The translations under genes were made by a program, and so were the position numbers. A stretch of 64,000 bases of DNA, from NCBI RefSeq assembly GCF_024505045.1, contig NZ_JANIBM010000001.1:248001-312000 (forward strand), read 5' to 3'. How positions within the stretch are numbered: the stretch's first letter is position 1; each line of letters starts with the position of its first letter. The DNA is from Methylomonas aurea (lineage in GTDB: Bacteria > Pseudomonadota > Gammaproteobacteria > Methylococcales > Methylomonadaceae). Shown here one piece after another: positions 9,134 to 64,000 of the stretch. Under the pieces are notes generated by a model. The model worked only from the letters and a program-made list of their open reading frames with translations. It was not told the origin of the DNA and searched no databases.

Positions 9134-9163
9134 AATCGGCTTCCGGTTTGCAATCGCTGGCGC

Positions 9164-9993: not shown

Positions 9994-10169
9994 GATGCGC
10001 CCCGCCTACAACTGTTCAAGGAAATAAACCAACGCCCGGCCGGCAGGCCGAGTGCCGGTATTGTTAGAGATCGGCTGGGGAAATACAAGACTCGCCCAGC
10101 CCAGCCAAGGCAAAGTTAACAAATCCGGCGAAAAGACCTACTATCCAGGCTATTGCGACTGCCGAGCGG

Positions 10170-11429: not shown

Positions 11430-11439
11430 TGCCGGCCAG

Positions 11440-12036
11440 TTAAAGCAGCGACTCGGCCGGCGGCTGTTGGTTAAACGCCACGACGTCCTCGTTATCGACC
11501 TGCTCGTAAATGTCGGCCACGCTCAGGCTAAGATCCAGCGCTGCGAATTCGATCTGGTCGCCCAGATAGTAATAAAACGACTGCCAATGCTGATTGCGGC
11601 GGAATACCTGGATTTCGCCTTTGTCCTGCTCGACCAGCACGTATTCCTCCAGCGTCGGCAGGGTCTGGCAGCGCAGGCGTTTGGCGGTCTGGTCGAATTT
11701 GCGCGTGGTTTTGGACAACACTTCCACGATCACGACCGGCGCGGTTTTGTAATAGTCGTCCTGCTTGTCTTCGCCGCAAACTACCATCACGTCGGGGTAG
11801 AAGAAATCGTCGGCGATACGCAGTTTCATATCGGACATGAAAGTCTTGCACGGCTTGCCTTTCAGGCCGTTTTTGAACAGATTGAAAATATTACCTTCCA
11901 GCAAATTGTGGTTCTCGCTGCCGCCGGTCATCGCATAGACTTCGCCGTCGATGAGCTGGTGGCGGAGCTCGGACTGGCGTTCGCCGGCCAGATATTGTTC
12001 CGGGCTGATGCGGGTTTTGAGTTTGGCAAGGGCCAT
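11440..12036 (-). CDS. Uma2 family (DUF820) putative endonuclease, copy 2
   Basis: A 198-residue Uma2 protein clearly paralogous to the one at 9400-9993: shared QLIDGEVYAMTGGSENHN, KLRIADDFFYPDVMV and VVIVEVLSKTTRKFD, and the same C-terminal VADIYEQVDNEDV. The acidic residues of the fold (D of YPDV, E of VEVLS) are kept. The two copies flank the symporter gene on the minus strand. Its cellular role is unknown. Confidence 0.86.
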   Translation of the reverse strand: MALAKLKTRISPEQYLAGERQSELRHQLIDGEVYAMTGGSENHNLLEGNIFNLFKNGLKGKPCKTFMSDMKLRIADDFFYPDVMVVCGEDKQDDYYKTAPVVIVEVLSKTTRKFDQTAKRLRCQTLPTLEEYVLVEQDKGEIQVFRRNQHWQSFYYYLGDQIEFAALDLSLSVADIYEQVDNEDVVAFNQQPPAESLL

Positions 12037-12186
12037 GGCCGTTCTCTGCTAAGTTGCGGATAGCAATAGTCTACTGTGCTAAGCACCGCCGAGAAAAGCG
12101 TGCGCCGGCGGCGTGTGAAATTCTACGCTTGCAGCGCTCTGGCTCGCCCTGTATCGTTCCGGCATCTATCTGTCTTTTGACCGCAC

Positions 12187-44026: not shown

Positions 44027-45506
<1,480 letters not shown>

Positions 45507-45606
45507 TCAACCCATTCATCTGTAATCCAGGCGCAAGCCTTTTGCGTGTCGTTTATTCACGACTGCGGACAGATAGACTAACAACGGCATTACGAGGAAA
45601 GCATCA

Positions 45607-46080
45607 ATGAGTATCAATGCTACTCTGATCGGGCAGATGATCACTTTCACGCTTCTGGTGTGGTTCACCATGAAGTATGTCTGGCCGCCGATCATTGCTG
45701 CTCTGGAAGAGCGCAAAACCAAAATCGCGGAAGGTTTGGCTGCGGCGGAAAAAGGCCAGGAAGAAATCAGACTGGCCGAAAAGAAAGCCAAAAGCGTGTT
45801 GAAGGAAGCCAAAGAGCAGTCGGCAGAGATCGTCAGCGCCGCGCAAAAGCGCGCCAACCAATTAGTCGAAGAAGCCAAGGAACAAGCCAAGAAAGAAGGC
45901 GAACGCCTGCTGGAAGCAGCCAAAGCGCAAATCGAACAGGAAATGTTGCACGCCAAGGAAAGTTTGCGTAAGGAAGTTTCCTCTCTGGCTTTACGTGCCG
46001 CCGAACAGATTTTGAAAGAAGAAATCGACAAGGCCAAGCACCAAGACATTATCAGTAAAGCGGCAGAACAATTGGGTTAA
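45607..46080 (+). CDS. atpF: ATP synthase Fo subunit b
   Basis: A 157-residue peripheral stalk subunit. One N-terminal membrane helix (about residues 6-24, [19 protein letters not shown]) is followed by a long charged coiled coil rich in lysine, glutamate and alanine. The length fits E. coli AtpF. It lies 3 bases before atpH. Confidence 0.95.
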
Positions 46081-46083
46081 GCG

Positions 46084-46614
46084 ATGGCTGAAATATCGAC
46101 ATTAGCAAGACCTTACGCTCAGGCCGCGTTCAAGCGGGCCAAAGAAGCCGATGCTGCCCAAAACTGGTCCGATTCTTTAACGTTTTTGTCTTTGCTGGTC
46201 CAAGACGAGGCCTTGGCTGGAATCGTTGCCAACCCCAGAGTCAACAAACAGAATACAGCACAGTTGCTCCTGGATATTTGCCAGGATCAAATTCACGATG
46301 AAGCCAAAAACCTTCTCAAAGTGTTGATCGAGAACGACAAATTGCCTTTGTTGCCTCAGATTTCGGTAATGTTCGAACAGTATAGGGCCGACGACGAAGG
46401 TTATGTCAATGTCGAGCTGCAAAGCGCATACGCTTTGACAAAAGCCGAGCAAGGCAAATACGTCGCCATGCTCGAAAAGTTTTTGCAGAAAAAAGTCAAC
46501 GCGTCAGTGTCTGTCGATAAATCGTTAATTGGGGGCATTCTCGCCAAAGCCGGCGACAAAGTCATCGACGGTTCCGTCAGAGGCCAGCTTCATCAATTAG
46601 CTAAAAGACTTTAA
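46084..46614 (+). CDS. atpH: ATP synthase F1 subunit delta
   Basis: A 176-residue delta subunit joining F1 to the b stalk. STLARPYAQAAFKRAKE at the start and VDKSLIGGILAKAGDKVIDGSVRGQLHQLAKRL at the end are the family signatures. It lies in the conserved place between atpF and atpA. Confidence 0.95.
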   Translation: MAEISTLARPYAQAAFKRAKEADAAQNWSDSLTFLSLLVQDEALAGIVANPRVNKQNTAQLLLDICQDQIHDEAKNLLKVLIENDKLPLLPQISVMFEQYRADDEGYVNVELQSAYALTKAEQGKYVAMLEKFLQKKVNASVSVDKSLIGGILAKAGDKVIDGSVRGQLHQLAKRL

Positions 46615-46635
46615 GAGTTAGAGCGGGAAAATAAC

Positions 46636-48177
46636 ATGCAATTAAATCCATCAGAAATAAGTGATCTGATCAAGAAGAAGATCGAGAACTTCGACGCCCA
46701 CCTCGAGGCCCACACCGAGGGCACCGTAGTCAGCGTTACCGACGGTATCGTTCGGGTTCACGGTTTGTCTGAAGCAATGCAAGGTGAAATGCTGGAATTT
46801 CCTGGCGGCTCTTACGGCATGGCTTTAAACCTGGAAAGAGACTCTGTCGGTGTCGTTATGCTGGGTGCTTACCAGCACATCACCGAAGGAGACACCGTTA
46901 AATGCACCGGCCGGATTTTGGAAGTGCCTGTCGGCGAAGCGCTTTTGGGCCGCGTGGTGGATGCGCTGGGTAACCCGATCGACGGCAAAGGCGCGATCGA
47001 GACCAATCTGACCTCCCCAATCGAAAAAATCGCACCCGGCGTTATCGCGCGCCAATCGGTTGATCAACCGGTACAAATCGGTTTGAAATCGATTGACTCG
47101 ATGATCCCGGTAGGTCGTGGCCAACGGGAATTGATCATTGGCGACCGCCAAACCGGCAAAACCGCGATTGCCGTCGATGCCATCATCAATCAAAAAGGCA
47201 CCGGCATTAAATGTATTTATGTTGCGATCGGCCAAAAACGTTCGTCGATTGCCAACGTGGTGCGTAAGTTGGAAGAACACGGCGCGATGGAACATACCAT
47301 CATCGTCGTCGCCTCGGCCTCCGAATCCGCTGCTCTGCAATTCATCGCGCCGTACACTGGTTGCTCGATGGGTGAATACTTCCGCGACAACGGCCAAGAT
47401 GCGTTGATCATCTACGACGATTTGACCAAGCAAGCTTGGGCCTACCGTCAAATTTCTTTGTTGCTGCGTCGTCCGCCGGGACGTGAAGCCTATCCGGGCG
47501 ACGTGTTCTACATCCACTCCCGTTTGCTGGAACGTGCTGCCCGTATCAATGCCGATGAAGTCGAGAAACTGACCGGCGGAAAAGTTAAGGGCAAAACCGG
47601 TTCGCTGACAGCGTTGCCGATTATCGAAACTCAAGGCGGCGACGTTTCCGCGTTCGTTCCGACTAACGTAATCTCAATCACCGACGGCCAGATCTTCCTG
47701 GAAACCGGTTTGTTCAACTCCGGTATCCGTCCTGCCGTGAACGCGGGTTTGTCGGTGTCGCGGGTTGGCGGTGCGGCGCAAACCAAGATCATCAAAAAAT
47801 TGGGCGGCGGTATTCGTCTGGACTTGGCGCAGTTCCGCGAGTTGGCGGCATTTGCTCAGTTCGCTTCTGATCTGGACGAAAGTACCCGCAAACAGATCGA
47901 GCGCGGCCAACGCGTCACCGAACTGATGAAACAGAACCAATATGCGCCGATGTCGGTTGCGGAAATGGGCGTTTCGCTGTATGCGGCAAACAACGGATTT
48001 CTGGATAGCTTGGAAGTCAAACAAGTACGCGTATTCGAAGCGGCGCTGCTGGATTTCATGCGAAACGAGGAAGCCGAGTTGATGGCCAAAATCAACGAAA
48101 AAGGCGACTACAACGACGAAATCCAAAAAGGCATTCACGCGGCGATCGAGCGTTTCGTCAAGACTGCTAGCTGGTAA
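46636..48177 (+). CDS. atpA: ATP synthase F1 subunit alpha
   Basis: A 513-residue alpha subunit, the same length as in E. coli. The P-loop [15 protein letters not shown], the region [13 protein letters not shown] and [17 protein letters not shown] are intact. It forms the non-catalytic nucleotide sites of the F1 hexamer. It begins [20 protein letters not shown]. Confidence 0.97.
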
Positions 48178-48188
48178 AGGACTCGCAC

Positions 48189-49052
48189 ATGGCTGTTGGT
48201 AAAGAGATACGATCAAAAATCGCGAGTATCAAGAATACTCAGAAGATTACTCGAGCCATGGAAATGGTGGCGGCGAGTAAGATGCGTAAAACCAAAGACC
48301 GTATGCAGGCTACCCGGCCTTACTCGAAAAAAATTGGCCAGATCATTCGGCATCTGGCCAAAGCCAATCCTGAGTACAAACATCCGTTCATGATCGAACG
48401 GGACGTTAAACGGGTAGGCATTATCGTGGTGAGTTCCGACCGTGGTTTATGCGGCGGCTTGAACGCCAACCTGTTCAGAAAGGTGCTGAGCGAAATGCAC
48501 CAATGGCAAGGCAAAGGTGTCGCCGTCGATGTCTGCGCGATTGGCGGTAAGGGTGCTGCGTTCTTCAGTATGATCAACGCCAATTTGGTCGGTCAGGTTT
48601 CGAAGTTGGGCGACACACCGCACCAGAGTGACATTATCGGCCCGATCAAAATCATGCTGGATGCCTTTACTAACGGCGATATCGACGAGCTTTTCCTGCT
48701 CAGCAACGACTTTGTCAACACCATGACTCAAAAGCCGGTGATGCAGAAATTGTTGCCGGTATCGGTCGGCGAACTGGGCGAAGAGACAAAAGGCCGGTGG
48801 GATTACCTGTACGAGCCCAACGCCAAAGACGTATTGGACAGCCTATTGATTCGCTATGTCGAGTCAGCGGTATTCCAGGGTTTGGTCGAAAACAACGCCT
48901 GCGAACAGGCTGCACGGATGGTGGCGATGAAAAGCGCCTCCGATAACGCCGGCAACATCATCAAAGAATTGCAACTGGTCTACAACAAAGCCAGACAGGC
49001 CGCGATTACGCAGGAAATTTCCGAAATCGTCGCCGGCGCCGCCGCGGTGTAA
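48189..49052 (+). CDS. atpG: ATP synthase F1 subunit gamma
   Basis: A 287-residue central rotor shaft. [30 protein letters not shown] at the start and [41 protein letters not shown] at the end form the coiled-coil shaft. The length equals that of the E. coli protein. Confidence 0.96.
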
Positions 49053-49076
49053 GGCATTCAAGACAAGTTTAGATAG

Positions 49077-50471
<1,395 letters not shown>

Positions 50472-50495
50472 TCCGGCTCATAGGAGAGTTTTAAC

Positions 50496-50918
50496 ATGGC
50501 AATGACAATACATGTGGACATCGTCAGCGCCGAGGCGGAAATTTTTTCCGGCTTGGCGGAGATGGTGTTCGCGCCTGCCGAGTTGGGTGAAGTCGGTATC
50601 GCGCCGCGCCATGCGCCGCTGATTACTAAGCTGAAGCCCGGTGAAGTCAGGGTTAAAATCAGCGACAAAGAATCGCACGCGTTTTTCGTATCCGGCGGGT
50701 TTTTGGAAGTTCAGCCGCATTTGGTGACCGTGCTGGCCGAAACCGCGATCAGAGCTCACGACATTGACGAAGCGGCGGCATTGCAAGCCAAGGCCAGAGC
50801 GGAAGAAATGTTGCAAGACAAGTCCGGCAAATACGATTACGCGATCGCCCAAGCCGAATTGGCGCAAGCGGTTAACCAGTTGAAAACTCTGGACAGACTC
50901 AGAAAGCGTGGCGCATAA
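50496..50918 (+). CDS. atpC: ATP synthase F1 subunit epsilon
   Basis: A 140-residue epsilon subunit with the beta-sandwich part ([43 protein letters not shown]) and the C-terminal inhibitory helical hairpin. It is the last gene of the atp operon and is followed 22 bases later by an intrinsic terminator. Confidence 0.95.
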
Positions 50919-50940
50919 AATCCGATTTGCGTGAAAATTT

Positions 50941-50974
50941 AAGCCCGATAGCGTAACGTTATCGGGCTTTTTTT
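50941..50974 (+). terminator. Rho-independent terminator of the atp operon
   Basis: AAGCCCGATA at 50941-50950 pairs with TATCGGGCTT at 50960-50969, and seven T (50968-50974) follow. It ends the atpIBEFHAGDC transcript just before glmU. Confidence 0.9.
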
Positions 50975-50989
50975 GTTTAAGGAATAGCG

Positions 50990-52462
50990 ATGTCGATAAA
51001 AACCATTATTCTCGCCGCCGGCCAAGGTACGCGAATGCGCTCGTCCCGGCCGAAAGTACTGCACGAAATCGCCGATAAGGCGCTATTGCAACACGTCTAC
51101 GAGACTGCGCGATCTCTGGAAAATAACCAAATCTACATCATTTACGGCCACGGTGGCGAGACGGTCAAGCAAACCTTGGCGTCGCTGGATGCCACCTGGA
51201 TCGAACAAAAGCAGCAGTTAGGCACCGGACACGCCGTGCAACAGGCCATTCACTACGTCGACGACCCGGATACGGTGTTGATTCTGTATGGCGATGTGCC
51301 GTTACTGAAAGCAAAAACCCTAAATGCGCTATTGCATAAAGTCAGCCTGACCACTCTGGCTTTGTTAACGGTCAACTTGGACGACCCGACCGGCTATGGC
51401 CGCATTGTGCGTGACAAGGAACATGCGGTAGTGAAGATCGTTGAGCAAAAGGACGCCAACGAAGCCGAGTTGCAAATTACGGAAGGCAATACCGGCATCC
51501 TGGCCTGTAAAGGCAGCCAACTCAAACAGTGGCTGGCCAGGCTCGGTAACAACAACGCCCAAAACGAATACTATTTGACCGACATCATCGAAATGGCGGT
51601 GGAAGATGGCCTAACCATCGAAACCTGCCAGGCCGGCAGTGCCGATGAAGTGCTCGGGGTAAACAACCGGATGCAGCTCGCCCAGCTGGAACGCGTATAC
51701 CAAGCCGAGCAAGCGCATTTCCTGATGGAAAAGGGTGTTACATTGCGCGACCCGGCTCGTATCGACATCCGCGGCGAATTTGCCGAACTGGGTCAGGACA
51801 TCGATATCGATGTCAACGTTATTTTCGAAGGGACGAATCGAATAGGCTCTAACGTCAAAATAGGCCCTAACTGCCTGATCAAAAATTCGACGATTGCCGA
51901 CGGCGTAGAAGTATTGGCGAACAGCGTAATTGAAGACGCCAGCGTCGGCAGCGGCAGTCGGATCGGCCCGTTTGCCAGGCTGCGGCCGCAAACCGAACTG
52001 GCCGACCACGTGCATATCGGCAATTTTGTCGAGATCAAAAAGTCGTCCGTTGCCAGCGGTAGCAAGATTAACCATTTAAGCTATATTGGCGATAGCGAAG
52101 TCGGCCGTAAAGTCAATATCGGTGCCGGTACCATCACTTGCAATTACGATGGCGTCAATAAGTTCAAAACCGTGATCGGCGATGGCGCGTTTATCGGTTC
52201 TGATACGCAGTTGGTAGCGCCGGTGACGGTGGGCAAAAATGCCACGATTGGCGCCGGTTCCACCATCACCAAGGATACGCCCGACGACCAATTGACGTTG
52301 AGCCGCACCAAGCAGCTTAGCGTACCGACTTGGCAAAGACCGGTTAAACTGGCGGAGATTGTTCCGGACAATTCTCCGCACTCCTCACATCCCTGTAAGT
52401 CGGCAGAGATTGTTCCGGACAATCTTCTGCACTCCCAACATTCCTGTAAGTCGGAGAAATAA
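50990..52462 (+). CDS. glmU: Bifunctional GlmU: glucosamine-1-P acetyltransferase / GlcNAc-1-P uridyltransferase
   Basis: A 490-residue enzyme making UDP-GlcNAc for peptidoglycan and lipopolysaccharide. The N-terminal uridyltransferase has [20 protein letters not shown] and LYGDVPLL; the C-terminal left-handed beta-helix acetyltransferase has hexapeptide repeats and [23 protein letters not shown]. The family normally ends soon after [17 protein letters not shown] (about 455 residues). Here about 35 extra residues, SAEIVPDN...[12 protein letters not shown]...SCKSEK, come from two in-frame 51-base repeats. The core enzyme is complete, so it should work. Confidence 0.95.
52351..52452 (+). repeat. 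Two in-frame 51-base palindromic repeats inside glmU
   Basis: Units 52351-52401 and 52402-52452 agree at 44 of 51 bases. Each holds a stem-loop around TTGTTCCGGACAA: GCGGAGA pairs with TCTCCGC in unit 1, and GCAGA with TCTGC in unit 2. A G-to-A change in one arm is matched by C-to-T in the other, which keeps the stem. 51 bases are 17 codons, so the glmU frame is preserved. Confidence 0.85.
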
Positions 52463-52463
52463 T

Positions 52464-54299
52464 ATGTGTGGCATAGTCGCGGGCGTTGCCCAACGCAACG
52501 TGGTTCCGATTTTGATAGAAGGTTTGAAACGTCTGGAATACCGCGGGTACGACTCGGCCGGGCTGGCCGTGATCCAAAACGGCGAAATATTCCGGAAGCG
52601 TGAATTGGGCAAGGTTAAAGGACTGGAAGAATTGATTGCGGCCGATCCGATCGAAGGCCGTATTGGCATCGCCCACACACGCTGGGCCACCCACGGCAAG
52701 CCGAGTACTCGCAACGCACACCCTCACGTCAGTAAGGACCGGGTCGCGGTTGTCCACAACGGTATCATCGAAAACCACGATAACCTGCGCACCGCACTGC
52801 AGGAAAACGGCTACGTTTTCACGTCCGAAACCGATACCGAGGTCATCGTCCACAAGGTCGCCGAAGAATTGAAAGACTCCGGCAGCCTGCTCGATGCGGT
52901 CGGCAAAACCGTTAAAACCTTACGCGGCGCCTACGCGCTGGGTGTGATCGACAGCGAACAACCGGACGTACTGGTTGCCTGCCGTAAAGGCAGCCCGTTG
53001 GTGATCGGTATCGGTATCGGTGAATACTTCATCGCCTCCGACATTGCCGCGCTGCTGCCGGTCACGCAACGCTTCATCTTTCTGGAAGACGGCGACATCG
53101 CCGAATTGACCATCAACGGCGTCACTATTTTCGACGACGCCGGCCGCCGCGTCATTCGTCCGGTCATCGAAAGCCAGCTCAAGGCCGACGCAGTCGACAA
53201 AGGCAAATACCGCCACTACATGCTCAAGGAAATCTACGAGCAAGCCTGGGCGGTATCGGAAACCCTGGAAGGCCGTTTCATCGACAACCGCTTGCAGGAT
53301 AATGCCTTTGGTCACAATGCCGGCGAAGTGTTTGACCAAATCAAATCGGTGCTGATTCTGGCTTGCGGTACTAGTTACCATGCCGGTTTGGTCGCCCGCT
53401 ACTGGTTCGAGAAATACGCCCGCGTTCCTTGCGCAATCGAGATCGCCAGCGAATTTCGTTACCGTAACCCGGTCGTCGCCCCGGATACCCTGGTCGTCAC
53501 TATTTCCCAGTCCGGCGAAACCGCCGATACTCTCGCCGCATTGCAGGAGGCTAAAAAGCTCGGCGTCAAACATTCCTTGGTGATCTGCAACGCGCCGGAA
53601 AGCTCCCTGGTGCGCGAATCAGATCTGGTGTTGATGACCCGCGCCGGCCCGGAAATCGGCGTCGCGTCGACCAAGGCCTTCACCACCCAGTTGGTCGCCC
53701 TGCTAATGCTTATCATCGCCATCGGCCGCCGCTTCGAACTCAGCGCCGAGAAAGAAGAGCACATCGTCTCGCAATTGTTCGCTTTGCCAGGCAACATCGA
53801 AAAAGTGCTGAAGCTGGACAATGCAATCGAATTGCTGTCGCAGCGATTTGCCGACAAGCACAATGCGCTGTTCCTCGGCCGCGGCACGCATTACCCGATT
53901 GCGATGGAAGGGGCCTTGAAGCTTAAGGAAATTTCCTACATCCACGCCGAAGCCTATCCGGCCGGGGAGTTGAAGCACGGCCCGCTGGCGTTGATCGACG
54001 CGGAAATGCCGGTGGTCACCGTGGCGCCGAATAACAATTTGCTGGAAAAGTTGAAATCCAACATCCAGGAAGTCAGCGCCCGGGGCGGTCAGCTGATCGT
54101 ATTCATGGACGAAGATTTGGCCGAAAGCGACGCCGCCGACGAGAACGTGCAAATCGTCAAAATGCCCAGCGTTGCCAACGCCATCTCCCCGATTATTTAT
54201 ACGATACCGTTACAACTGCTTTCGTATCACGTCGCAGTGTTGAAAGGTACCGACGTCGACCAACCTCGCAATCTGGCGAAGTCGGTAACGGTGGAATAG
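52464..54299 (+). CDS. glmS: Glutamine--fructose-6-phosphate aminotransferase (isomerizing)
   Basis: A 611-residue GlmS, which makes glucosamine-6-phosphate. The catalytic Cys2 starts the N-terminal glutaminase domain ([33 protein letters not shown]), and two SIS isomerase domains follow ([30 protein letters not shown]). It ends [16 protein letters not shown] 52464 is required by the Cys2 rule; a longer reading from 52359 translates the repeat and is false. Its GGAG ribosome site (52453-52456) directly abuts the end of the second repeat. Confidence 0.97.
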
Positions 54300-54925
54300 C
54301 GGCGATGTTGGTGAAATGGATGTGTTTCGTGAGAATAAAGTCGTAAAACGTTTAATAAAGTCGTAAAAATTGTTTACACCACAGTGGTCCTTGAATGGCC
54401 ACTGCAGGTGTAACGTACACTCTAATATCTTTCGCTGCATTAGCAGTATTTGATATCGATAATTCCTATCCTTAAGCATCAGCATTATTGGGCAGATTAC
54501 GTATTCGGATTAAATCAGCCCCAATTCCAAAGTCAAAACCGCCAGGAATTCCAATCGAAACCCGCTAGTGGCGCCGATCGGCCATTATGTGAAGCTTCCA
54601 TTTATGCATAGTAAGTAATCACGTAAGCGCTTAGCAATAAGTCGACAAGTGCACGATCTTTTCCAAGCCCCATCTTCATAGCGCTTGGCAACAAGCAATA
54701 CATGTGGATTTTTTGCTAGGCGCTTATCACTTGGCACGCCATATTCGACAATTTTGGATTGTTTGTTTCGATAAAACTCCTCAGCGTCAGAGAGTAATCT
54801 GTTGACTAGAAGTCAGTGAAATCTGGACAAGATAAGAGTACATTGGTCATATGAAATGGCCGGAAATTCGCGGATTTTGCTCGTGCCAGTAACTATTTTT
54901 TCACGCGTCCATAATACGGCACTTA
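54300..54925. other. Long AT-rich intergenic region between glmS and glgP
   Basis: 626 bases without a supported gene. It holds two copies of AATAAAGTCGTAAAA (54334-54348 and 54354-54368, 20 bases apart), an inverted pair CAGTGG/CCACTG near 54382-54404, and two GCGCTTRGCAAYAAG copies (54627-54641 and 54681-54695, 54 bases apart) with a further partial GCGCTTATCACTTG copy at about 54720. These could be decayed mobile repeats or binding sites. Confidence 0.5.
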
Positions 54926-57490
54926 ATGCACTCCAAGAATAGAATCAGCGATCCTCGAATCGAAGAACTGCTAACGGTTGTTCAGTCTCGCACCAGTCTC
55001 AGTGCCCATTCTATCAAACAGGGCATCCTCGAACATTTGATATACAGTCTGGGAAGGTCGCCCCACGAGGCCCCGAAACAAGCCTATTACAAGGCTTTGG
55101 CATTCGCTATACGGGACCGTTTGCAGCACCGGTGGATTAATACTGTCCAGAATTATTTAAAAGGCGTTCGCCTAAAAAAAGACGTCAAAGTCGTCTGCTA
55201 TTTTTCAGCCGAATTCATGATAGGCCCACAGCTTGAAAATAGCCTGATCAATCTCGGTATCGAGCCCGAGGTTCGTAAAGCAGTTGCTGATTTGGGTAAG
55301 GACCTCGATGAATTAATAGCCTTGGAAGCTGAGCCAGGACTCGGAAACGGCGGGCTCGGCAGATTGGCGGCTTGTTATCTGGATTCTTTGGCGACCTTGG
55401 AGCGTCCTGCCATCGGCTACGGCATTCGTTATGAGTTCGGCATCTTCGACCAACATATCCGCGACGGCTGGCAAGTGGAAATGACCGACAAATGGTTACG
55501 CGGCGGCAATCCATGGGAAATCGCCAAGCCGGAAGTCGCCTATTACGTCGGATTCGGCGGCCATTCCGAATCTTACCGCGACAATAGGGGCGACATCCGC
55601 ATGCGCTGGATTCCAGACCGCATGGTTAAGGGAGTGGCGTTCGACACACCGGTACCTGGCTATCGAGTCAATACCTGCAATACCCTTCGGTTATGGAGTG
55701 CCGAAGCCTGCGAGTCTTTTGATTTTCAGGCTTTCAATACCGGCGATTATTATCAGGCGGTGGAAGAGAAAGTTATATCCGAAACCCTAACTAAGGTTCT
55801 CTATCCCAACGACGAGCCGGAAGCCGGTAAAAAGCTTAGGTTATCGCAACAATATTTCTTCGTGTCCTGCTCACTACAGGACATGCTGCATTTGCTCGAT
55901 ATCACGGGGCAAGCCATAACGGAGTTTCCAGATCGTTTTGCCGCTCAACTGAACGATACCCATCCGGCCATCGCGGTAGCCGAATTGATGCGCCTGTTAA
56001 TCGATGAACGATTATTGTCGTGGGATGATGCCTGGCAAATCACCTGTCGTACCTTCAGCTACACCAATCACACGCTGATGCCGGAGGCTTTGGAAGCTTG
56101 GTCCTTGGCCTTATTCCAGGATCTGCTGCCCCGTCATTTGGAAATCATTTATGAAATCAATCGCCATTTTCTGGATGAAGTCAGGCAACGCTATCCCGGC
56201 GATGACGAGCGTATCGCCAAGTTATCGTTGTTCGATGAAACCAACCTCAGGCACCTTCGCATGGCACATTTGGCCTGCGTTGGCAGTCATTCCATCAATG
56301 GCGTGGCGGAACTACATACTGAATTGCTGCAAACCAGTATATTGAAAGAGTTCTACGAACTTTGGCCTGTCCGGTTTAACAATAAGACCAATGGCGTGTC
56401 GCCGCGCCGGTTTATGGTATTAGCCAATCCGGACCTAACCGAGTTGATCACTGAAACGATAGGCCCACAATGGATCACGAGGACCGATCAACTCCAAAAG
56501 CTCGAAGCTTATGCCGAGGATCCAAACTTTCGACAACGTTGGCTGGCAGTAAAACACGACAATAAAGTCAGGCTTGCCGGATATATTCAAAAACAGATCG
56601 GTATCTCTCTTGATCCAAGTTGGTTATTCGATATTCAAATCAAACGTATCCATGAATACAAACGTCAGCACCTGAATCTACTTTACATTCTGACTCTGTA
56701 TTGTCGTCTGAAACGAAATCCTACCTTGAAGCTGCCACCACAAGCCTTTATTTTCGCCGGCAAGGCCGCGCCTAATTACGCAATGGCTAAAAGCATCATC
56801 AAATTCATTCATGCCGTAGCCGAAACAATCAATCACGATCCGGAAATCAACTGTCTGTTGCGAGTTGTCTTCATCCCCAATTTCAATGTGCAGAAGAGCC
56901 AGATCATTTATCCTGCGGCGGACTTGTCCGAACAAATATCCCTGGCCGGTACAGAGGCCTCAGGCACCGGTAATATGAAATTTGCGTTGAACGGCGCATT
57001 AACCATAGGTACGCTGGATGGCGCCAATATCGAAATCCGTGAAAGAGTGGGGGCCGAGAATTTTTTCGACTTTGGTCATCAAGCATTTGAGGTGCAAAGA
57101 CTCAAACGCGAAGGTTACAGCCCCTCCTCTTACATAGAAAACGATCAGCAATTAGCGGAAATCTTCCACTTATTGGACACTGGCCATTTTACTCATGGAG
57201 ACCGGGAAATTCTCCTTCCGCTGTTGGACAATATTCGCTCGATTGACCCGTATATGGTTCTTGCGGACTATGCCGATTATATTTCCTGCCACGAGCGAAT
57301 TTGCTCGCTTTGGCAAGATCAGGATAAATGGACAAGCATGTCTATATTGAATACGGCCAGATCAGGCTGTTTTTCGTCGGACCGAGCTATACGCGAATAT
57401 TGTGATCAGATCTGGAAGGTTGGGCCGGTACCAATCAAATTACCGCCAGAGAATGCGGATAGACCGCTTGTCGAACACGACCAACGGTGA
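54926..57490 (+). CDS. glgP: Glycogen/starch phosphorylase
   Basis: An 854-residue GT35 enzyme releasing glucose-1-phosphate from alpha-glucans. EAEPGLGNGGLGRLAACYLDSLATLERPAIGYGIRYEFGIF, VRFNNKTNGVSPRRF, and the pyridoxal-phosphate lysine K685 in GTGNMKFALNGALTIGTLDGANIE are intact. The usual length is about 815-830, so it is slightly long at both ends. No other glycogen gene is in the window. The ATG has no obvious ribosome site. Confidence 0.95.
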   Translation: MHSKNRISDPRIEELLTVVQSRTSLSAHSIKQGILEHLIYSLGRSPHEAPKQAYYKALAFAIRDRLQHRWINTVQNYLKGVRLKKDVKVVCYFSAEFMIGPQLENSLINLGIEPEVRKAVADLGKDLDELIALEAEPGLGNGGLGRLAACYLDSLATLERPAIGYGIRYEFGIFDQHIRDGWQVEMTDKWLRGGNPWEIAKPEVAYYVGFGGHSESYRDNRGDIRMRWIPDRMVKGVAFDTPVPGYRVNTCNTLRLWSAEACESFDFQAFNTGDYYQAVEEKVISETLTKVLYPNDEPEAGKKLRLSQQYFFVSCSLQDMLHLLDITGQAITEFPDRFAAQLNDTHPAIAVAELMRLLIDERLLSWDDAWQITCRTFSYTNHTLMPEALEAWSLALFQDLLPRHLEIIYEINRHFLDEVRQRYPGDDERIAKLSLFDETNLRHLRMAHLACVGSHSINGVAELHTELLQTSILKEFYELWPVRFNNKTNGVSPRRFMVLANPDLTELITETIGPQWITRTDQLQKLEAYAEDPNFRQRWLAVKHDNKVRLAGYIQKQIGISLDPSWLFDIQIKRIHEYKRQHLNLLYILTLYCRLKRNPTLKLPPQAFIFAGKAAPNYAMAKSIIKFIHAVAETINHDPEINCLLRVVFIPNFNVQKSQIIYPAADLSEQISLAGTEASGTGNMKFALNGALTIGTLDGANIEIRERVGAENFFDFGHQAFEVQRLKREGYSPSSYIENDQQLAEIFHLLDTGHFTHGDREILLPLLDNIRSIDPYMVLADYADYISCHERICSLWQDQDKWTSMSILNTARSGCFSSDRAIREYCDQIWKVGPVPIKLPPENADRPLVEHDQR

Positions 57491-57567: not shown

Positions 57568-58836
57568 ATGTCAATTTCACGGCAACGCGCCAACCAGCAT
57601 CTTTCCCGACTGCTGGAAAGTCACTCGCTGCAAGAGCTGGCCTCAAGACTGGCCCCGCGTTCTGATACGCCGGCGATTTCCATTCCCAAACATCATCACA
57701 CATTAACTAGCGGGGAAATCGCAAAACGCTGGCACGCGCTCGGTGTCTCGGCGGAAATCCAGGCCCAGTTGCTGGATCCACAGACTGAACAGCAATATCG
57801 GAGTTATCAACACAACATCGAAAACTTCATCGGCACGGTAAAAGTACCCGTTGGATTGGTAGGGCCATTGCGGGTGAATGGCCTTTTCGCACAGGGCGAT
57901 TTCGTACTACCGCTCGCCACCACCGAAGCCGCGCTGGTAGCGTCCTATAGTCGTGGCGCGCAACTCATTACCGAAGCCGGTGGCTGCACGGCGATGTTGT
58001 TGAGCGAGGGCGTCAGCCGCGCTCCCGGCTTTGCCTTCGAGAATTTGCGCGATGCCGGGCTATTCGTGGCTTGGGCGGTTACCCAAGAAGAGCAATTCCG
58101 TCTAGCCGCCGAGCGGACTACCCGGCATGGCAAACTCGCCGATCTGGAATTCACCGTAGAAGGCAATCATGTCTACCTGCGCTTTCAGTTTCTGACCGGC
58201 GATGCCGCCGGGCAAAACATGGTGACCATCGCCACTCAGGCCATTTGCGATTACATCATCGCCACCTCGCCACTCAAACCGAAATATTACTTTCTGGAAG
58301 CCAATTTTTCCGGCGATAAGAAAGCTAGCTTGCAATCGTTTCTGGCCGTGCGCGGCAAGAAAGTCACCGCGGAAGTGTTGATACCCGGTCCAATGATCAA
58401 AACCCATCTGCATACCTCGGCCGCCGCAATGGTCGATCATTGGCGCATGGCGGCGATAGGTGGCGTACTGAGTGGCACAATCGGTGTACAGGGCCATTAC
58501 GCCAACGGTTTGGCCGCTTTGTATCTGGCTTGTGGGCAGGACGTTGCCTGTGTCGCCGAATCCGCCGTCGGAGTAACGCGCTTCGAACAGACCGAAAACC
58601 ACGATTTATACGCCGCGGTGACGCTGCCCAATTTGATAGTGGGCAGCGTCGGCGGCGGCACCGGCCTGCCCAGCCAGCATGCCTGCCTGGAAATTGCCGG
58701 CTTTGCTGGCGCGGACAAGGCGCAGGCCTTTGCTGAAACCTGCGCCGCGCTGTGCCTGGCTGGTGAGCTTTCGATTGTTGGCGCGCTATGCGCCGGCGAT
58801 TTCGCCCGCGCCCATCAAAAACTAGCACGGGGATAA
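57568..58836 (+). CDS. Class I-like HMG-CoA reductase
   Basis: A 422-residue protein with all signatures of HMG-CoA reductase, which reduces HMG-CoA to mevalonate with NADPH. Dimer motif ENFIG is at 85-89, PLATTEAALVAS carries catalytic E120, TGDAAGQNMV is at 210-219, GDKKAS contains the lysine (251/252), GQD contains D325, the NADPH loop GSVGGGTGLPSQ is near 359-370, and H416 is in the C-terminal DFARAHQK. All four catalytic residues are thus present. Bacteria of this kind normally make isoprenoids by the MEP route, so a lone HMG-CoA reductase is odd, and no other mevalonate gene is visible. The UbiA gene follows after 4 bases. Confidence 0.88.
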   Translation: MSISRQRANQHLSRLLESHSLQELASRLAPRSDTPAISIPKHHHTLTSGEIAKRWHALGVSAEIQAQLLDPQTEQQYRSYQHNIENFIGTVKVPVGLVGPLRVNGLFAQGDFVLPLATTEAALVASYSRGAQLITEAGGCTAMLLSEGVSRAPGFAFENLRDAGLFVAWAVTQEEQFRLAAERTTRHGKLADLEFTVEGNHVYLRFQFLTGDAAGQNMVTIATQAICDYIIATSPLKPKYYFLEANFSGDKKASLQSFLAVRGKKVTAEVLIPGPMIKTHLHTSAAAMVDHWRMAAIGGVLSGTIGVQGHYANGLAALYLACGQDVACVAESAVGVTRFEQTENHDLYAAVTLPNLIVGSVGGGTGLPSQHACLEIAGFAGADKAQAFAETCAALCLAGELSIVGALCAGDFARAHQKLARG

Positions 58837-58840
58837 CGCG

Positions 58841-59755
58841 ATGTGGAATGCAATCAAACAAAACCGCTGGTGGATTTATCAGCAAGAACGTTTTCCGGTG
58901 TTCGCGCACGGCACACTGATTGCCGTCTTCAGCTTGGCGGCCGTCGCTTATTCGGCCGTGCTAGGCGGGCGCTATGCCTTAGAACTCTCGGCCTTTGCGG
59001 TTGCCTTCGCCACCACATTCGGTTTTTTTCTCTTGTTACGCATCGCCGATGAATTCAAGGATTTCGAGGACGACTGCCGTTACCGTGCTTATCGCCCGGT
59101 CCCGCGCGGATTGATCGGTTTGAACGATCTGCGTTATCTGGCGATCATCGTTCTGGCATTACAGATGCTGGCGGCACTGCTGCTGCACGCGCCATTGGCA
59201 ATGTTGTTGGTCTTGGTCTGGGTTTATCTGGGCTTGATGACAGTGGAGTTTTTCGCCGGTTCCTGGCTGCGGCGGCACCCAACGCCTTATATGTTGAGCC
59301 ACATGCTGATCATGCCGCTGATTCAGCTTTATGCCAGCGCCTGCGATTGGCTGCCGCAAACTTCGACTCCGCCGGCCGGATTAAGCTGGTTTCTTGCCGC
59401 CAGCTATGCCAATGGCCTGGTGATCGAAATCGGCCGCAAGATTCGCGTGCCGGAAGACGAGGAACCCGGCGTCGAAACCTATTCGGTGCTGTGGGGACGC
59501 AAAACCGCCTGCCTCGTTTGGTTGAGCGCCATGGGCGCAGCCGGCGTTTTCGCATCGCTGGCGGCCGACCGTGTCGCTGTTGGAGGGCTCACAATAGTGC
59601 TGCTGAGCCTGGGTTGGATAATATCGGCGTTGCTGGCGTTTCACTTCCTAACCCAGACCCGGACCCAAAGCGGAAAAGCCATCGAGACCTGTTCCGGGCT
59701 TTGGACGCTGGCCTCCTATCTGTTGCTGGGACCAGTTGCGTTATTGATGGTTTGA
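58841..59755 (+). CDS. UbiA-superfamily prenyltransferase
   Basis: A 304-residue membrane protein with about seven to nine hydrophobic helices. The first aspartate-rich motif is ADEFKDFEDD at 69-78, followed by YRAYRPVPRGLI, and the second conserved region EIGRKIRVPEDEEPGVETYS starts at E196. Enzymes of this superfamily transfer prenyl groups to aromatic or lipid acceptors in the membrane. The acceptor here is unknown. The gene is 4 bases after the HMG-CoA reductase and 10 before the dikinase, clearly one operon. Confidence 0.86.
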   Translation: MWNAIKQNRWWIYQQERFPVFAHGTLIAVFSLAAVAYSAVLGGRYALELSAFAVAFATTFGFFLLLRIADEFKDFEDDCRYRAYRPVPRGLIGLNDLRYLAIIVLALQMLAALLLHAPLAMLLVLVWVYLGLMTVEFFAGSWLRRHPTPYMLSHMLIMPLIQLYASACDWLPQTSTPPAGLSWFLAASYANGLVIEIGRKIRVPEDEEPGVETYSVLWGRKTACLVWLSAMGAAGVFASLAADRVAVGGLTIVLLSLGWIISALLAFHFLTQTRTQSGKAIETCSGLWTLASYLLLGPVALLMV

Positions 59756-59765
59756 GGTTGCAGCC

Positions 59766-62426
59766 ATGGCGCTGATTTTGTTTCCGGAACAAGTATCGCC
59801 CCAAGATTCTATCGGCGGCAAAGCCGGCTCGCTGCTGGCGCTAGCCAGGGCCAAACTGCCGATTCCCGACTGGTTTGTCGTCACGCCCGCCGCCTTTTAC
59901 GCCAGTCTCCCCGCTGAGTTGGGTGAGACGCCCCCCGGCGACTGGCAGGCGGACATAATCAGTCAGGCAATGGTTGACATCCAGCCGGGCGCCGCGGTGG
60001 TTAGCGCCTTAGAGCGGGCCCTTATCCGGCTTTGCCCGGATGACGCGCTGTTGGCGGTACGGTCTTCAGCCGTCGATGAAGACAGCGCTCATCATTCCTT
60101 TGCCGGGCAATTGGAAAGTTTTCTGGGCGTAGAAAAAGATCAAGTCGCACGGTACGTCGCCGATGTCTGGCGCTCGGCGTTCTCGGCAAGGGTGTTGGCC
60201 TACCGCACTCAAGCCGGATTGCCAGCTTTTACCGGCGTTCCAGCCGTTTTGGTGCAGCGCATGGTCGACGCGGATCAATCCGGCGTGGCATTCGCCGCCG
60301 ACCCGGCCAGCGGCCGGCGATCGCTGGCCGTCATCGCCTCGGTCTATGGACTGGCCAGCGCCTTGGTAAGCGGCGATGTGGAGGGCGATACTTTCCAGGT
60401 CGATCGGCAGAACAACATCGTATTCAGGCATGTCGTCGACAAGCCTAAAGCACTAAAACTGTCGGCAATTGGCATCGATAAAGTCGTGGCCGTCGCTATC
60501 GACGCCAAACAAGCGCAGCTCAGCAGCCTGGAAGACCGGCAAATCGTTGAAATAGCCGAATTAGCTCGCCAGGCCAGCCGTTTTTTCAGCCGCCCCCAGG
60601 ACATCGAATGGGCCTACGCCGACAAAACGCTTTATCTAGTTCAGTCCCGCCCGATTACCTCGCTGTACCGGATGGCCGACCCCGACGGCCAATTCACGCT
60701 GTGGGACAACAGCAATATCGTCGAAAGCTACGGCGGCATCACCACCCCGCTCACCTACAGTTTTGCCCGTAGCGCTTACCGCGAGGTATATCGTCAATTC
60801 TGCCGCATCCTCGGCGTGACGGAGGCGGTGATTCAGGAAAACAATGCGACCTTTTCCTGCATGATAGGCCTGATCCGCGGCCGGGTTTATTACAACCTGC
60901 TGTCATGGTACACCGCGTTATCGTTGCTACCGGGATTTTCCAGCAATCGCCGTTTCATGGAACAAATGATGGGTGTCAAGGAAGCCCTGCCCCAGGCTTT
61001 AATAGGGCAAGTGCTTGCCAGGAACCGACGCAACCGCAGTCTCGATGTTTTGTATCTCCTTCGCACCGTGGCCGGCTTGCTGATCAACCACTTCAGCCTG
61101 GAAACCAAGATCAAACACTTCTATGCCCGACTCGACGCCGCGCTGACTCCGCCCGGCGTGCCGTTGGAATACATGCGTCCCGATCAGTTATGCTCGTATT
61201 ACCGCGAATTGGAACAGAAACTGCTCACACGCTGGGATGCGCCGCTGATCAACGACTTTTTCGCGATGATTTTCCATGGCCTGTTGCGGCGTTTGACGGC
61301 CGCCTGGTGCGCGGACGGCCAAGAAACGCTAGCCAACGACCTATTATGCGGCGAAGGCGGCATGATCAGCGCGGAACCCGCCCAGCGTCTTAAGGCGATG
61401 GCGCGGCTTGCCGCCACCGACCCGCAATTGGTCGACTGCCTTAGACAAGGTAATGGCGATGACATCGAAACGGCATTGGCGAAACACACCCAACTCCATC
61501 GGCTCTATCAAGATTACCTCGAGCGGTTTGGCGAGCGTTGCATCGGCGAACTGAAACTGGAAAGCCGCACGCTAGCCGACGAGCCGCTGTCATTACTGCG
61601 CTGCATCGGCGAATTGGCGGCCAAGCCTGTCGACGCCACTGCGGAAGAAACGGCCGAACGGCGGATACGCCGCAAGGCCGAAAACCAGGTAGCCAGTAAG
61701 TTAGCGCATCACCCCTTGCGCAAGCATCTGTTGCTATGGGTACTCAGCCATGCACGCCGGCGAGTGCGCGACCGGGAAAATCTGCGCTTCGAACGGACCC
61801 GGTTATTCGGACGCGTCAGGCGCCTGTTGGTCGAATTCGGCCGCCGATTGTATGCATTAAATCTGCTCGATGATCCCCGGGATATATTCTATCTGGAGGT
61901 CGAGGAAATCCTGGCCTTTGTCGAAGGCACCGCTACGACCACGCGGCTTTGCGAACTGGCGGCGCTACGCAAAGCTGAGTTCGATCAATACCGGCAAGAT
62001 CCGCCTCCGGCGCCGCGCTTTTCAACCCGGGGCATCGTCTATCAGGGCCATGACTATCGCGCGGAGCAACATCCGGCCGCTGCTGAACTCTCTTCGGATG
62101 AACTGAGCGGTCTGGGCTGTTGCGCCGGCAAAGTTCAGGGAGTGGTACATGTGGTCAGAGATCCCGGCCAGACCCGCCTAAGTCCCGGCGAGATCTTGGT
62201 CGCGGAATTCACCGATCCGGGCTGGATAATGCTGTTTCCGGCGGCGGCCGGCATCGTCGTCGAACGCGGCAGCCTGTTGTCGCATTCGGCCATCGTTGCC
62301 CGCGAGTTGGGAATTCCGGCAATTGTGGGGGTAAACAATGCCACCCAATTGCTGAAGGATGGTGACCGGATAACAATGGACGGCGCGACGGGTCTGATTC
62401 ATCGTTTGGCCGACGCATCGCCATGA
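59766..62426 (+). CDS. ATP-grasp/His-swivel phosphotransferase (PEP synthase / rifampin phosphotransferase-like)
   Basis: An 886-residue protein. The N-terminal ATP-grasp domain (about 1-300) has IGGKAGS at 16-22, LAVRSSAVDEDSAHHSFAGQLESFLGV and DIEWAYADKTLYLVQSRPITS. A middle region of about 450 residues has no catalytic motif that I recognise. The C-terminal swivel domain has FTDPGWIMLFPAAAGIVVERGSLLSHSAIVARELGIPAIVGV with the phosphohistidine H840. The PEP-binding TIM barrel of true PEP synthase is absent; length and domain order match rifampin phosphotransferases. It likely uses ATP to phosphorylate a small molecule or lipid precursor (inference). It overlaps the next gene by 4 bases. Confidence 0.82.
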   Translation: MALILFPEQVSPQDSIGGKAGSLLALARAKLPIPDWFVVTPAAFYASLPAELGETPPGDWQADIISQAMVDIQPGAAVVSALERALIRLCPDDALLAVRSSAVDEDSAHHSFAGQLESFLGVEKDQVARYVADVWRSAFSARVLAYRTQAGLPAFTGVPAVLVQRMVDADQSGVAFAADPASGRRSLAVIASVYGLASALVSGDVEGDTFQVDRQNNIVFRHVVDKPKALKLSAIGIDKVVAVAIDAKQAQLSSLEDRQIVEIAELARQASRFFSRPQDIEWAYADKTLYLVQSRPITSLYRMADPDGQFTLWDNSNIVESYGGITTPLTYSFARSAYREVYRQFCRILGVTEAVIQENNATFSCMIGLIRGRVYYNLLSWYTALSLLPGFSSNRRFMEQMMGVKEALPQALIGQVLARNRRNRSLDVLYLLRTVAGLLINHFSLETKIKHFYARLDAALTPPGVPLEYMRPDQLCSYYRELEQKLLTRWDAPLINDFFAMIFHGLLRRLTAAWCADGQETLANDLLCGEGGMISAEPAQRLKAMARLAATDPQLVDCLRQGNGDDIETALAKHTQLHRLYQDYLERFGERCIGELKLESRTLADEPLSLLRCIGELAAKPVDATAEETAERRIRRKAENQVASKLAHHPLRKHLLLWVLSHARRRVRDRENLRFERTRLFGRVRRLLVEFGRRLYALNLLDDPRDIFYLEVEEILAFVEGTATTTRLCELAALRKAEFDQYRQDPPPAPRFSTRGIVYQGHDYRAEQHPAAAELSSDELSGLGCCAGKVQGVVHVVRDPGQTRLSPGEILVAEFTDPGWIMLFPAAAGIVVERGSLLSHSAIVARELGIPAIVGVNNATQLLKDGDRITMDGATGLIHRLADASP

Positions 62427-63520
62427 CTACCGAAATTGCCGCCAATGCCGATTTCAGCACCATCCGTTACGCGCAGTGTTGGGAGGATGCCGACGTATTG
62501 TTGAAAGCACTGGCGATTCGGCCGGGGGATGTTTGCTTATCGATCGCCTCGGCCGGCGATAACTGTCTGGCCATGCTCGCTCACGACCCCAGCCGGGTGA
62601 TTGCGCTGGATATCAGCCCGGCCCAATTGTACTGTCTGGAACTACGCATCGCGGCCTACCGCAACCTGGAACATCCGGAACTCCTGGAACTGATCGGGTC
62701 CCGTCCCAGCATCAGGCGCTTGCAGCTTTACCAACACTGTCGCCCGTCATTAAGCCAAAATGCCCGCTGTTTCTGGGACGAGCGTCGAACGGCGATCGAA
62801 CAAGGCATAGGCAGCGCCGGCAAATTCGAACGCTACTTTAGTTTGTTTAGACGTTATATCTTGCCGCTGATACACGGGCGCACCACTGTGGTTCAAATGC
62901 TGCGAGGCGGCAACGCTAGCGAGCGGGAGGCGTTTTATTCGAGGATTTGGGATAACCGGCGCTGGCGCTTATTGTTTCGTTTGTTCTTTTCCCGGCTGGT
63001 GATGGGTCGTCTCGGGCGCGATCCGAGTTTTTTCCGTTATGTTGAAGGTGGAATCGCCGAGCGCCTAATGGAACGGACTCGTCACGCGCTGGTGGCATTA
63101 AATCCCAAGGACAATCCTTATCTGCACTGGATCGTGACCGGCCGCCACGGCGAGGCATTGCCGTTCGCTTTGCGCGCGGAAAACTTCGCTACCATCCGCA
63201 ACAACCTGGATCGCCTGGAATGGCGTTGCTGCGCGTTGGAAGACTTTCTATCATCAAACGACCGGCCGACTATCCAGCGCTTTAATCTCAGCGACATTTT
63301 CGAATATATGGCCGAATCGCAGTATCTGGCCTTGCTGCGTGACCTTGTTTCGGCAGCATCGCCCGGAGCGCGGCTGGTTTACTGGAACCTGTTGGCTCCG
63401 CGCCGAAGACCCCAAAGCATGGCTGAGCAACTGCACTCGCTGGACGAACTGGCGGTATCGTTGCATGGCCAGGATAAGGCTTTTTTTTATGGGGCGTTGA
63501 TCGTGGAGGAAGTGTTTTGA
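62423..63520 (+). CDS. DUF3419 family protein (BtaA-like 3-amino-3-carboxypropyl transferase)
   Basis: A 365-residue protein with the DUF3419 signature FSTIRYAQCWEDADVLLKALAIRPGDVCLSIASAGDNCLAML (residues 11-52) and the SAM-binding VIALDISPAQLYCLELRIAAYRNL. The C-terminal part includes FNLSDIFEYMAESQYLALLRDL and RLVYWNLLAPRR. Characterised BtaA moves the 3-amino-3-carboxypropyl group of SAM to diacylglycerol in betaine-lipid synthesis. A btaB methyltransferase is not seen. It overlaps both neighbours by 4 bases. Confidence 0.85.
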   Translation: MTTEIAANADFSTIRYAQCWEDADVLLKALAIRPGDVCLSIASAGDNCLAMLAHDPSRVIALDISPAQLYCLELRIAAYRNLEHPELLELIGSRPSIRRLQLYQHCRPSLSQNARCFWDERRTAIEQGIGSAGKFERYFSLFRRYILPLIHGRTTVVQMLRGGNASEREAFYSRIWDNRRWRLLFRLFFSRLVMGRLGRDPSFFRYVEGGIAERLMERTRHALVALNPKDNPYLHWIVTGRHGEALPFALRAENFATIRNNLDRLEWRCCALEDFLSSNDRPTIQRFNLSDIFEYMAESQYLALLRDLVSAASPGARLVYWNLLAPRRRPQSMAEQLHSLDELAVSLHGQDKAFFYGALIVEEVF

Positions 63521-64000
63521 TCGTAGGATCTTGGCCGGCAATGGCTCTGGTGCTGGCGGTATTGATCGCCTTATTCATGGCGGTAAACCACTTCCGCCAA
63601 CGATTGAAATTGCAGCCGGAAATCAGCCGAAAAATGTTGCACATTGGTATGGGGCCCATCATCCTCGCCTTTCCATGGCTATTTGCTTCGGCATGGCCGG
63701 TATTGGCCTTGTGCGCCTGCGTGCTCGTCACCCTGTCGATATTGCGTTCACGGCTCGCGGTGGGTGTATTCGCCGATTGGGGCCATAGCCTGAACGACAT
63801 TCAAAGATCGTCCTGGGGAGATTTTTGTTATCCATTGGCGACGGCTATCTTGTTTGTTGCCGCCGATCAAGAGCCGCTGCTGTTTGTGATTCCGATGCTG
63901 CTGCTGATCATCGCCGATGCGGCAGCGGCGTTGATCGGCCAGAGTTACGGCATGCATGCCTACCAAACCTTGGACGGGACCAAGACCATCGAAGGCTCGT
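63517..64000 (+). CDS. Phytol/dolichol kinase-like membrane protein (partial)
   Basis: The gene runs off the window; 161 residues are visible. The family motif SRKMLHIGMGP (R38, K39, H42) and ADAAAALIGQSYG...LDGTKTIEGS place it in the phytol kinase/dolichol kinase/CTP-transferase-like group of integral membrane proteins. The preferred start is TTG 63517, overlapping the upstream stop by 4 bases, with GGAGGA at 63505-63510 at ideal distance; the first ATG (63541) lacks a ribosome site. It probably phosphorylates a prenyl alcohol using a nucleoside triphosphate. It is the fifth gene of the cluster. Confidence 0.78.
   Translation, partial: MIVGSWPAMALVLAVLIALFMAVNHFRQRLKLQPEISRKMLHIGMGPIILAFPWLFASAWPVLALCACVLVTLSILRSRLAVGVFADWGHSLNDIQRSSWGDFCYPLATAILFVAADQEPLLFVIPMLLLIIADAAAALIGQSYGMHAYQTLDGTKTIEGS

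Follow-up and report, generated by a model that had tools for sequence, protein, structure and literature searches.

What do the genes packed at the end of a 64,000-nucleotide stretch of the Methylomonas aurea genome (contig positions 248001-312000, hereafter the window) make together? The original prediction had pointed to five of them, encoding a protein related to 3-hydroxy-3-methylglutaryl-CoA (HMG-CoA) reductase (H), a UbiA-family prenyltransferase (U), a dikinase (K), a DUF3419 protein (D) and a phytol/dolichol-kinase-like protein (T), and had proposed that they act in one pathway to an isoprenoid-derived or modified membrane lipid. The five open reading frames (ORFs) were located where they had been placed, on the same strand and with the gaps and overlaps given. 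The cluster had also been expected to continue past position 64000, and the next stretch of the contig (locus L002; window position = L002 position + 56999) bore this out, extending it from five to nine genes on one strand. Two of the added genes, coding for a tandem GNAT protein (G) and an AMP-ligase (A), complete a conserved cassette, H-U-K-D-T-G-A, for which the evidence of linkage in a single function is strong. The reading that we favor, at about an even chance, is that these seven core genes constitute one biosynthetic pathway to a polar membrane lipid, in which H reduces an acyl-CoA other than HMG-CoA; we infer the lipid nature of the product, the order of the steps and the names of the substrates.

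Conservation and linkage of the seven genes

A scan of the GTDB contigs with D retrieved 175 sites coding for a relative. Of these, the 80 most similar to D were examined together with L002 and a plasmid locus of Roseinatronobacter (L004), which gave 82 loci; because of this selection, the 80 loci lean toward near relatives of D. Neighbors, defined as genes within 10 kb of D, were identified with our own profiles for the other six genes, using thresholds that we set ourselves. K was present at 75 of the 82 loci, followed by G (64), U (62), T (60), A (56) and H (47). All seven genes were found at 35 loci and at least five at 60, many loci being cut by contig ends. Of the 38 loci that extend more than 8 kb to either side of D, 35 contained at least five genes and 22 contained all seven, and D stood alone at a single one (L030, genome G053). 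Almost all neighbor genes (366/369) lay on the strand of D, and the commonest gene orders were HUKDTGA (21 loci) and its circular permutation GAHUKDT (10 loci).

The loci with at least five genes spanned approximately 15 bacterial phyla as read from the record titles, namely, Deinococcota, Verrucomicrobiota, Cyanobacteriota, Planctomycetota, Desulfobacterota, Pseudomonadota, Acidobacteriota, Chloroflexota, Bacteroidota/Rhodothermota, Krumholzibacteriota, Gemmatimonadota, Actinomycetota, Latescibacterota, Rokuibacteriota and Lentisphaerota; individual labels may err because most records are metagenome bins. In Roseinatronobacter the cassette was plasmid-borne, and cultured species such as Alkalilimnicola ehrlichii and Desulfobulbus rhabdoformis also carry it. 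The search for conserved neighborhoods of DUF3419, UbiA and HMG-CoA reductase genes, proposed earlier as a check, has thus been run and returned a recurring cassette. Chance adjacency of the genes was rejected on the basis of this conservation across genomes, and for the same reason their tight packing exceeds chance. Inter-locus distances correlated beyond all 200 shuffles for 20 of the 21 gene pairs, the exception being H-U (0.10). When the unassigned ORFs of at least 90 amino acids (aa) were clustered, no further family exceeded 6 of the 82 loci. From the 322 flanking ORFs of at least 200 aa, we chose 68 for a Pfam scan, in which no family occurred in more than 3.

Two gene fusions support K/D and T/U as partner pairs, each fusion being observed once. 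At L100, a 1185-aa open frame covers both K (residues 2-825) and D (817-1184), and the Pfam families PPDK_N, PEP-utilizers and DUF3419 are all present in it. At L042, a 598-aa frame combines the kinase half of T with a UbiA protein; the UbiA part scored 147.8 bits with PRK13592 (residues 294-578) and 27.4 bits with Pfam UbiA, under the cut-off of 34.2. U and the beginning of K also share one frame at L026, which may be a sequencing slip, since K continues in another frame.

Co-occurrence was assessed in 369 genomes sampled evenly across the class of M. aurea, independently of gene neighborhood; this sample is only partly independent of the fetched loci because some of its genomes repeat them (L105/L013 and L091/L014). 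D with at least 53% identity was found in 7 genomes and DUF3419 proteins with at most 32% identity in 22 further ones, with none between these values. A strong G (at least 246 bits) was present in 6 of the 7 genomes with D and in 0 of the 362 others, the next best match scoring 86 bits. H with at least 54% identity was found in 6 of the 7 as well and in two others: in G300 it adjoins U where a short contig ends, and in G162 no cassette genes accompany it in the 15 kb read. The hypergeometric values for co-occurrence with D, uncorrected for kinship, were 2e-12 for G and 6e-11 for H. All seven genes were present at L100 (with a short T), L101 and L103, and six up to the contig end at L105; the exception was L102 (G094), with K and D only, in a genome that had no G or H match. 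The recurrence in approximately 15 phyla, the co-occurrence in the class sample and the two fusions support a shared function of the genes, as had been proposed for five of them, and the unit is larger than proposed, with nine genes here and seven, G and A included, conserved.

Some loci depart from the common layout. Those from Verrucomicrobia and one record titled Akkermansia (L006, L017, L033 and L040) carry beside the cassette a weaker second copy of a K-like gene, a short ORF that on visual inspection seems NTF2-like and a long one resembling class III aminotransferases; Aminotran_3 was found in 1 of the 68 ORFs scanned. Variant cassettes in which A, U and K are more divergent were observed at L041 and L080 (8692-18404), at the latter with these three genes on the strand opposite to H, D and T.

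The HMG-CoA-reductase-like protein

We aligned 48 H rows from 47 loci, including two divergent pieces from L021, with two solved class I enzymes, which we take to be the human and an archaeal HMG-CoA reductase; the counts that follow refer to rows with a letter at the position. H is closest to class I enzymes, and its best solved relative was 6hr7 (E = 3e-83). The catalytic residues were conserved, namely, Glu559 (44/44), Lys691 (45/46), Asp767 (47/48) and His866 (47/48), as were Arg590 (44/44), Asp690 (44/46) and Lys692 (45/46). In contrast, Ser684 was replaced in all 45 rows (Glu in 43, Asp and Ala in 1 each) and Lys735 in all 47 (Met in 31, Val in 10, Ala in 3, and Ile, Phe and Thr in 1 each); in M. 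aurea H these positions are Glu and Met. Both residues hold the HMG carboxylate in the canonical enzyme, a role described for Lys735 in PMC9500038. The DAMGMN motif mostly reads DA(A/S)GQN in H, and the protein scored 316.8 bits with the NCBIfam HMG-CoA reductase equivalog, under its cut-off of 441.8.

The genomic background was inspected in 42 D-carrying genomes, a set without L038 and with G053, whose D has no cassette genes nearby. The HMG-CoA synthase family PF08540 was not found in 41 of them; an archaeal-type synthase could be missed, since this family, which matched 4 of 14 controls, was silent in Methanocaldococcus and Sulfolobus despite their HMG-CoA reductase matches. DXR of the methylerythritol phosphate (MEP) pathway was present in 38 of the 42 genomes, and H was not found in 9. 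H shares with the reductase of the mevalonate pathway the domain and the catalytic Glu, Lys, Asp and His, and differs from it in the two replaced positions, the altered motif and mostly MEP-type hosts. Judging from these residues and from the scarcity of the synthase beside the frequent DXR, H most likely does not make mevalonate. Mevalonate supply for isoprenoids was rejected as the likely role on the DXR and PF08540 counts, and the isoprenoid meaning originally read into this gene is not supported, given the missing HMG-carboxylate residues and the synthase not found in 41 of the 42 genomes.

It is conceivable instead that H does act as an HMG-CoA reductase, with HMG-CoA coming from leucine breakdown or from a synthase that escaped the search, and that mevalonate is a building block which the other enzymes phosphorylate and attach. 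The intact catalytic tetrad, the retained Arg590, Asp690 and Lys692 and the closeness to class I agree with such a role, but the loss of Ser684 and Lys735, the missed equivalog cut-off and the PF08540 result make it improbable.

One comparison complicates this picture. Weaker HMG-CoA reductase matches occurred in 42 class-sample genomes, and 11 were examined. At 37-46% identity to H, Lys735 was absent in 7 of 7 proteins and Ser684 kept in 4, whereas at 32-37% identity 4 of 4 kept both. The loss of Lys735 in the former group suggests that a broader HMG-CoA-reductase-like clade either left HMG-CoA or binds it otherwise, H being one branch. In the stand-alone proteins of this kind from cassette-free genomes of the class (L111-L117 and L122-L128), Lys735 is missing and the DAMGMN motif contains A and Q; their annotation as HMG-CoA reductase may be wrong. 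A Pfam scan of 10 neighbors of these genes at L122-L128 gave no substrate hint and no common theme.

Proposed steps and product

In the favored pathway, A would activate a carboxylic acid and H would carry out a four-electron reduction of the thioester to a primary alcohol; the adjacency of A and H in the permuted clusters fits acid activation ahead of reduction. A falls in the same PRK09274/OleC-like group as the OleC beta-lactone synthetase, but it stays below equivalog level with the OleC models (212.9/900 and 201.6/850 bits), and no conserved gene is fit to be OleA, OleB or OleD. T would then phosphorylate the alcohol made by H, like VTE5 acting on phytol. Its N-terminal half resembles cyanobacterial proteins named phytol kinase by their sources (VTE5 family; hhalign probability 99.6) and has in common with them the motifs R-K..H, K..EGS and DN. 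T differs from them in a second membrane half, which is weakly DUF92-like (matches in 5 of 28 members, best E = 0.0023; 15.7 bits in the first member, cut-off 27.5); against solved folds, T matched CDP-DAG synthetase modestly. U would transfer the activated chain to an acceptor oxygen. The motifs DEFKD..D and E..GV..Y are conserved in its family, with D70, D74 and D78 invariant (14 rows). Its nearest solved relative is the UbiA protein of archaeal ether lipids, DGGGP synthase (E = 1.5e-5 over 98 positions); the match is weak, and the cassette has no other archaeal-lipid gene as a conserved companion.

The kinship of T with VTE5-family proteins and the T-U fusion could also signify that prenyl-alcohol salvage by T feeds the prenylation of an aromatic ring by U, yielding a quinone- or tocopherol-like redox compound. 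VTE5 and VTE6 provide phytyl diphosphate for tocopherol (PMC8054155). Nevertheless, no ring-forming or tocopherol gene is conserved with the cassette, U fits no quinone or tocopherol prenyltransferase model at an E value of 0.01 (best PRK13592, 80/443 bits), and a pathway of this kind leaves D, G and A without a role, which renders it very improbable.

D would attach a 3-amino-3-carboxypropyl group from S-adenosylmethionine (SAM). BtaA is an aminocarboxypropyl transferase (PMC10491745), and D likely transfers this group to a lipid hydroxyl. The cassette might accordingly make a variant betaine lipid, with D acting on diacylglycerol like BtaA and the other genes modifying the homoserine head. 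D is a clear DUF3419 member (240 bits), which we take to be the family of BtaA. Several observations make this variant unlikely: D falls in a separate identity group (7 class matches at 53% or more vs 22 at 32% or less), is shorter (365 aa vs approximately 400-440 aa for the open frames of most weaker DUF3419 matches) and has six other partner genes. To our knowledge, BtaA requires no prenyltransferase. No conserved candidate for BtaB was found at the 82 loci, where 2 of the 68 flanking ORFs matched methyltransferase families, BtaB not having been searched for genome-wide. D had no match among solved sequences up to E = 1.

K would phosphorylate a hydroxyl with a phosphate of ATP. It combines an ATP-grasp domain (PF01326) with a His swivel domain (PF00391) whose SHxA His is conserved in a 63-row alignment, as in rifampin phosphotransferase, phosphoenolpyruvate (PEP) synthase and RedH-PigC. 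Unlike these, it scored below the cut-off of each NCBIfam model listed (RPH, 337/999; PEP synthase TIGR01418, 251.9/739.75; RedH, 356.4/1350), and Pfam did not find a pyruvate-binding C-terminal domain. G would acylate an amine, and the ABC ATPase and FtsX/LolC-type permease of M. aurea and L084 would remove the product from the inner membrane. Where cyanobacteria lack H and T, a native VTE5-type kinase and the phytyl pool could substitute.

A more specific version, in our estimate doubtful, is a sphingolipid-like lipid made without serine palmitoyltransferase, that is, a ceramide-phosphate analogue obtained from SAM via a repurposed HMG-CoA reductase in approximately 15 phyla. D would transfer the homoserine-type aminocarboxypropyl unit from SAM to a prenyl or alkyl ether made by U, A would activate the carboxyl of this unit, and H, with a carboxylate pocket now consisting of Glu and a neutral residue and suited to an amine, would reduce it to an amino alcohol. 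G would N-acylate the amino alcohol, and K or T would phosphorylate the new hydroxyl.

The olefin (Ole), betaine-lipid, archaeal-lipid and tocopherol pathways were compared, and the cassette matches none of them as a whole system. No description of the gene combination was found in the open-access literature, the scope of the search, in line with the earlier statement that no such pathway was known; DUF3419 itself is rarely named there, and the papers that do so deal, judging by titles and abstracts, with algae, plants and a fungus. Any novelty would lie in the pathway as a whole, its enzyme families being individually known. A cassette this conserved and widespread should make something useful. 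With it, bacteria would gain a further class of lipids or lipid-like compounds, and a group of DUF3419 proteins would have a function beyond betaine lipids. It would also show that a bacterial protein can carry the annotation HMG-CoA reductase without being this enzyme; since genomes are credited with the mevalonate pathway on the basis of such annotations, a mislabel spreads. The seven-gene unit is compact enough for cloning.

DUF3419 genes also occur in other company. On Rhizobium plasmid pMK-2 (L090, 335-4655), one lies with genes for an MBL-fold protein and an annotated CoF synthetase, and at L104 (5183-9547) a DUF3419 protein with 28% identity is encoded near an AMP-ligase with a carrier-protein domain, perhaps a second type of DUF3419 pathway.

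Spread, gain and surroundings of the cassette

Within the genus, D was found in 1 of 37 genomes, and in 1 of 41 when M. aurea and related genomes are counted. A lack of co-conservation in related genomes, named beforehand as evidence against the cluster, is thus true only among close kin, because the cassette is patchy. In the relative G007 both flanks match, and the segment 54498-71450 (window scale) is missing, with approximately 3.3 kb of other ORFs instead. The simplest reading is that the cassette was gained by horizontal transfer; mobile-element borders were not found around the segment.

Such a distribution (1/37 in the genus, 7/369 in the class), together with the plasmid location at L004, the absence from the corresponding place in G007 and an exporter adjoining the cassette at L002 and L084, would also fit a specialized metabolite. 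The cassette would then make a diffusible prenylated or acylated small molecule, such as a signal, an antibiotic or a metal binder, that is exported by the ABC system, and no membrane lipid. We regard this as possible but tentative. The permease occurs at just those 2 of the 82 loci (L041 stops just past an ABC ATPase), no further family recurs at more than 6 loci, so that there is no accompanying regulator or resistance gene, and the integral kinase and the UbiA protein point to membrane substrates.

Features of the M. aurea locus in window coordinates, with L002 coordinates in parentheses
Feature	Position	Strand	Size and evidence
Second glycogen/starch phosphorylase copy	54926-57490	+	Outside the conserved cassette; inside the segment absent from G007
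H, class I HMG-CoA-reductase-like	57568-58836	+	422 aa; ORF, Pfam HMG-CoA_red 378.8 bits
U, UbiA-family prenyltransferase	58841-59755	+	304 aa; ORF, Pfam UbiA 35.3 bits (cut-off 34.2)
K, dikinase of PEP synthase/rifampin phosphotransferase type	59766-62426	+	886 aa; PPDK_N 200.2 bits, PEP-utilizers 97.8 bits
D, DUF3419 (BtaA-like), probable SAM-dependent transferase	62423-63520	+	365 aa; DUF3419 240.3 bits, E = 5.1e-71
T, VTE5-like kinase, membrane protein	63517-64866 (6518-7867)	+	449 aa; TTG start; window ends at 64000
G, tandem GNAT	64851-65861 (7852-8862)	+	Two GNAT domains in a single chain
A, AMP-ligase, PRK09274/OleC-like group	65858-67447 (8859-10448)	+	
ABC ATPase	67466-68161 (10467-11162)	+	
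Permease, FtsX/LolC-type	68155-69360 (11156-12361)	+	

Consecutive genes are separated by 4 (H-U), 10 (U-K) and 18 (A-ABC ATPase) bases or overlap by 4 (K/D), 4 (D/T), 16 (T/G), 4 (G/A) and 7 (ATPase/permease) bases. The family assignments made at the outset held for H, U, K and D, each above its curated Pfam cut-off; no Pfam family reached its cut-off in T, whose kinship with phytol kinases comes from the profile comparison instead. Between the permease and a CsgG-like gene, a stretch of 2.3 kb (L002 12362-14705) contains only two ORFs of at least 100 aa; both lie on the minus strand, and the longer has no Pfam match. Upstream of the cassette, the phosphorylase in the segment missing from G007 is 57% identical to its next best relative in the genus. 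Identity to G007 is approximately 79% upstream of the acquired segment (44968-54497) and 97.5% downstream of it (71451-73181, window scale), which hints at recombination in the downstream flank.

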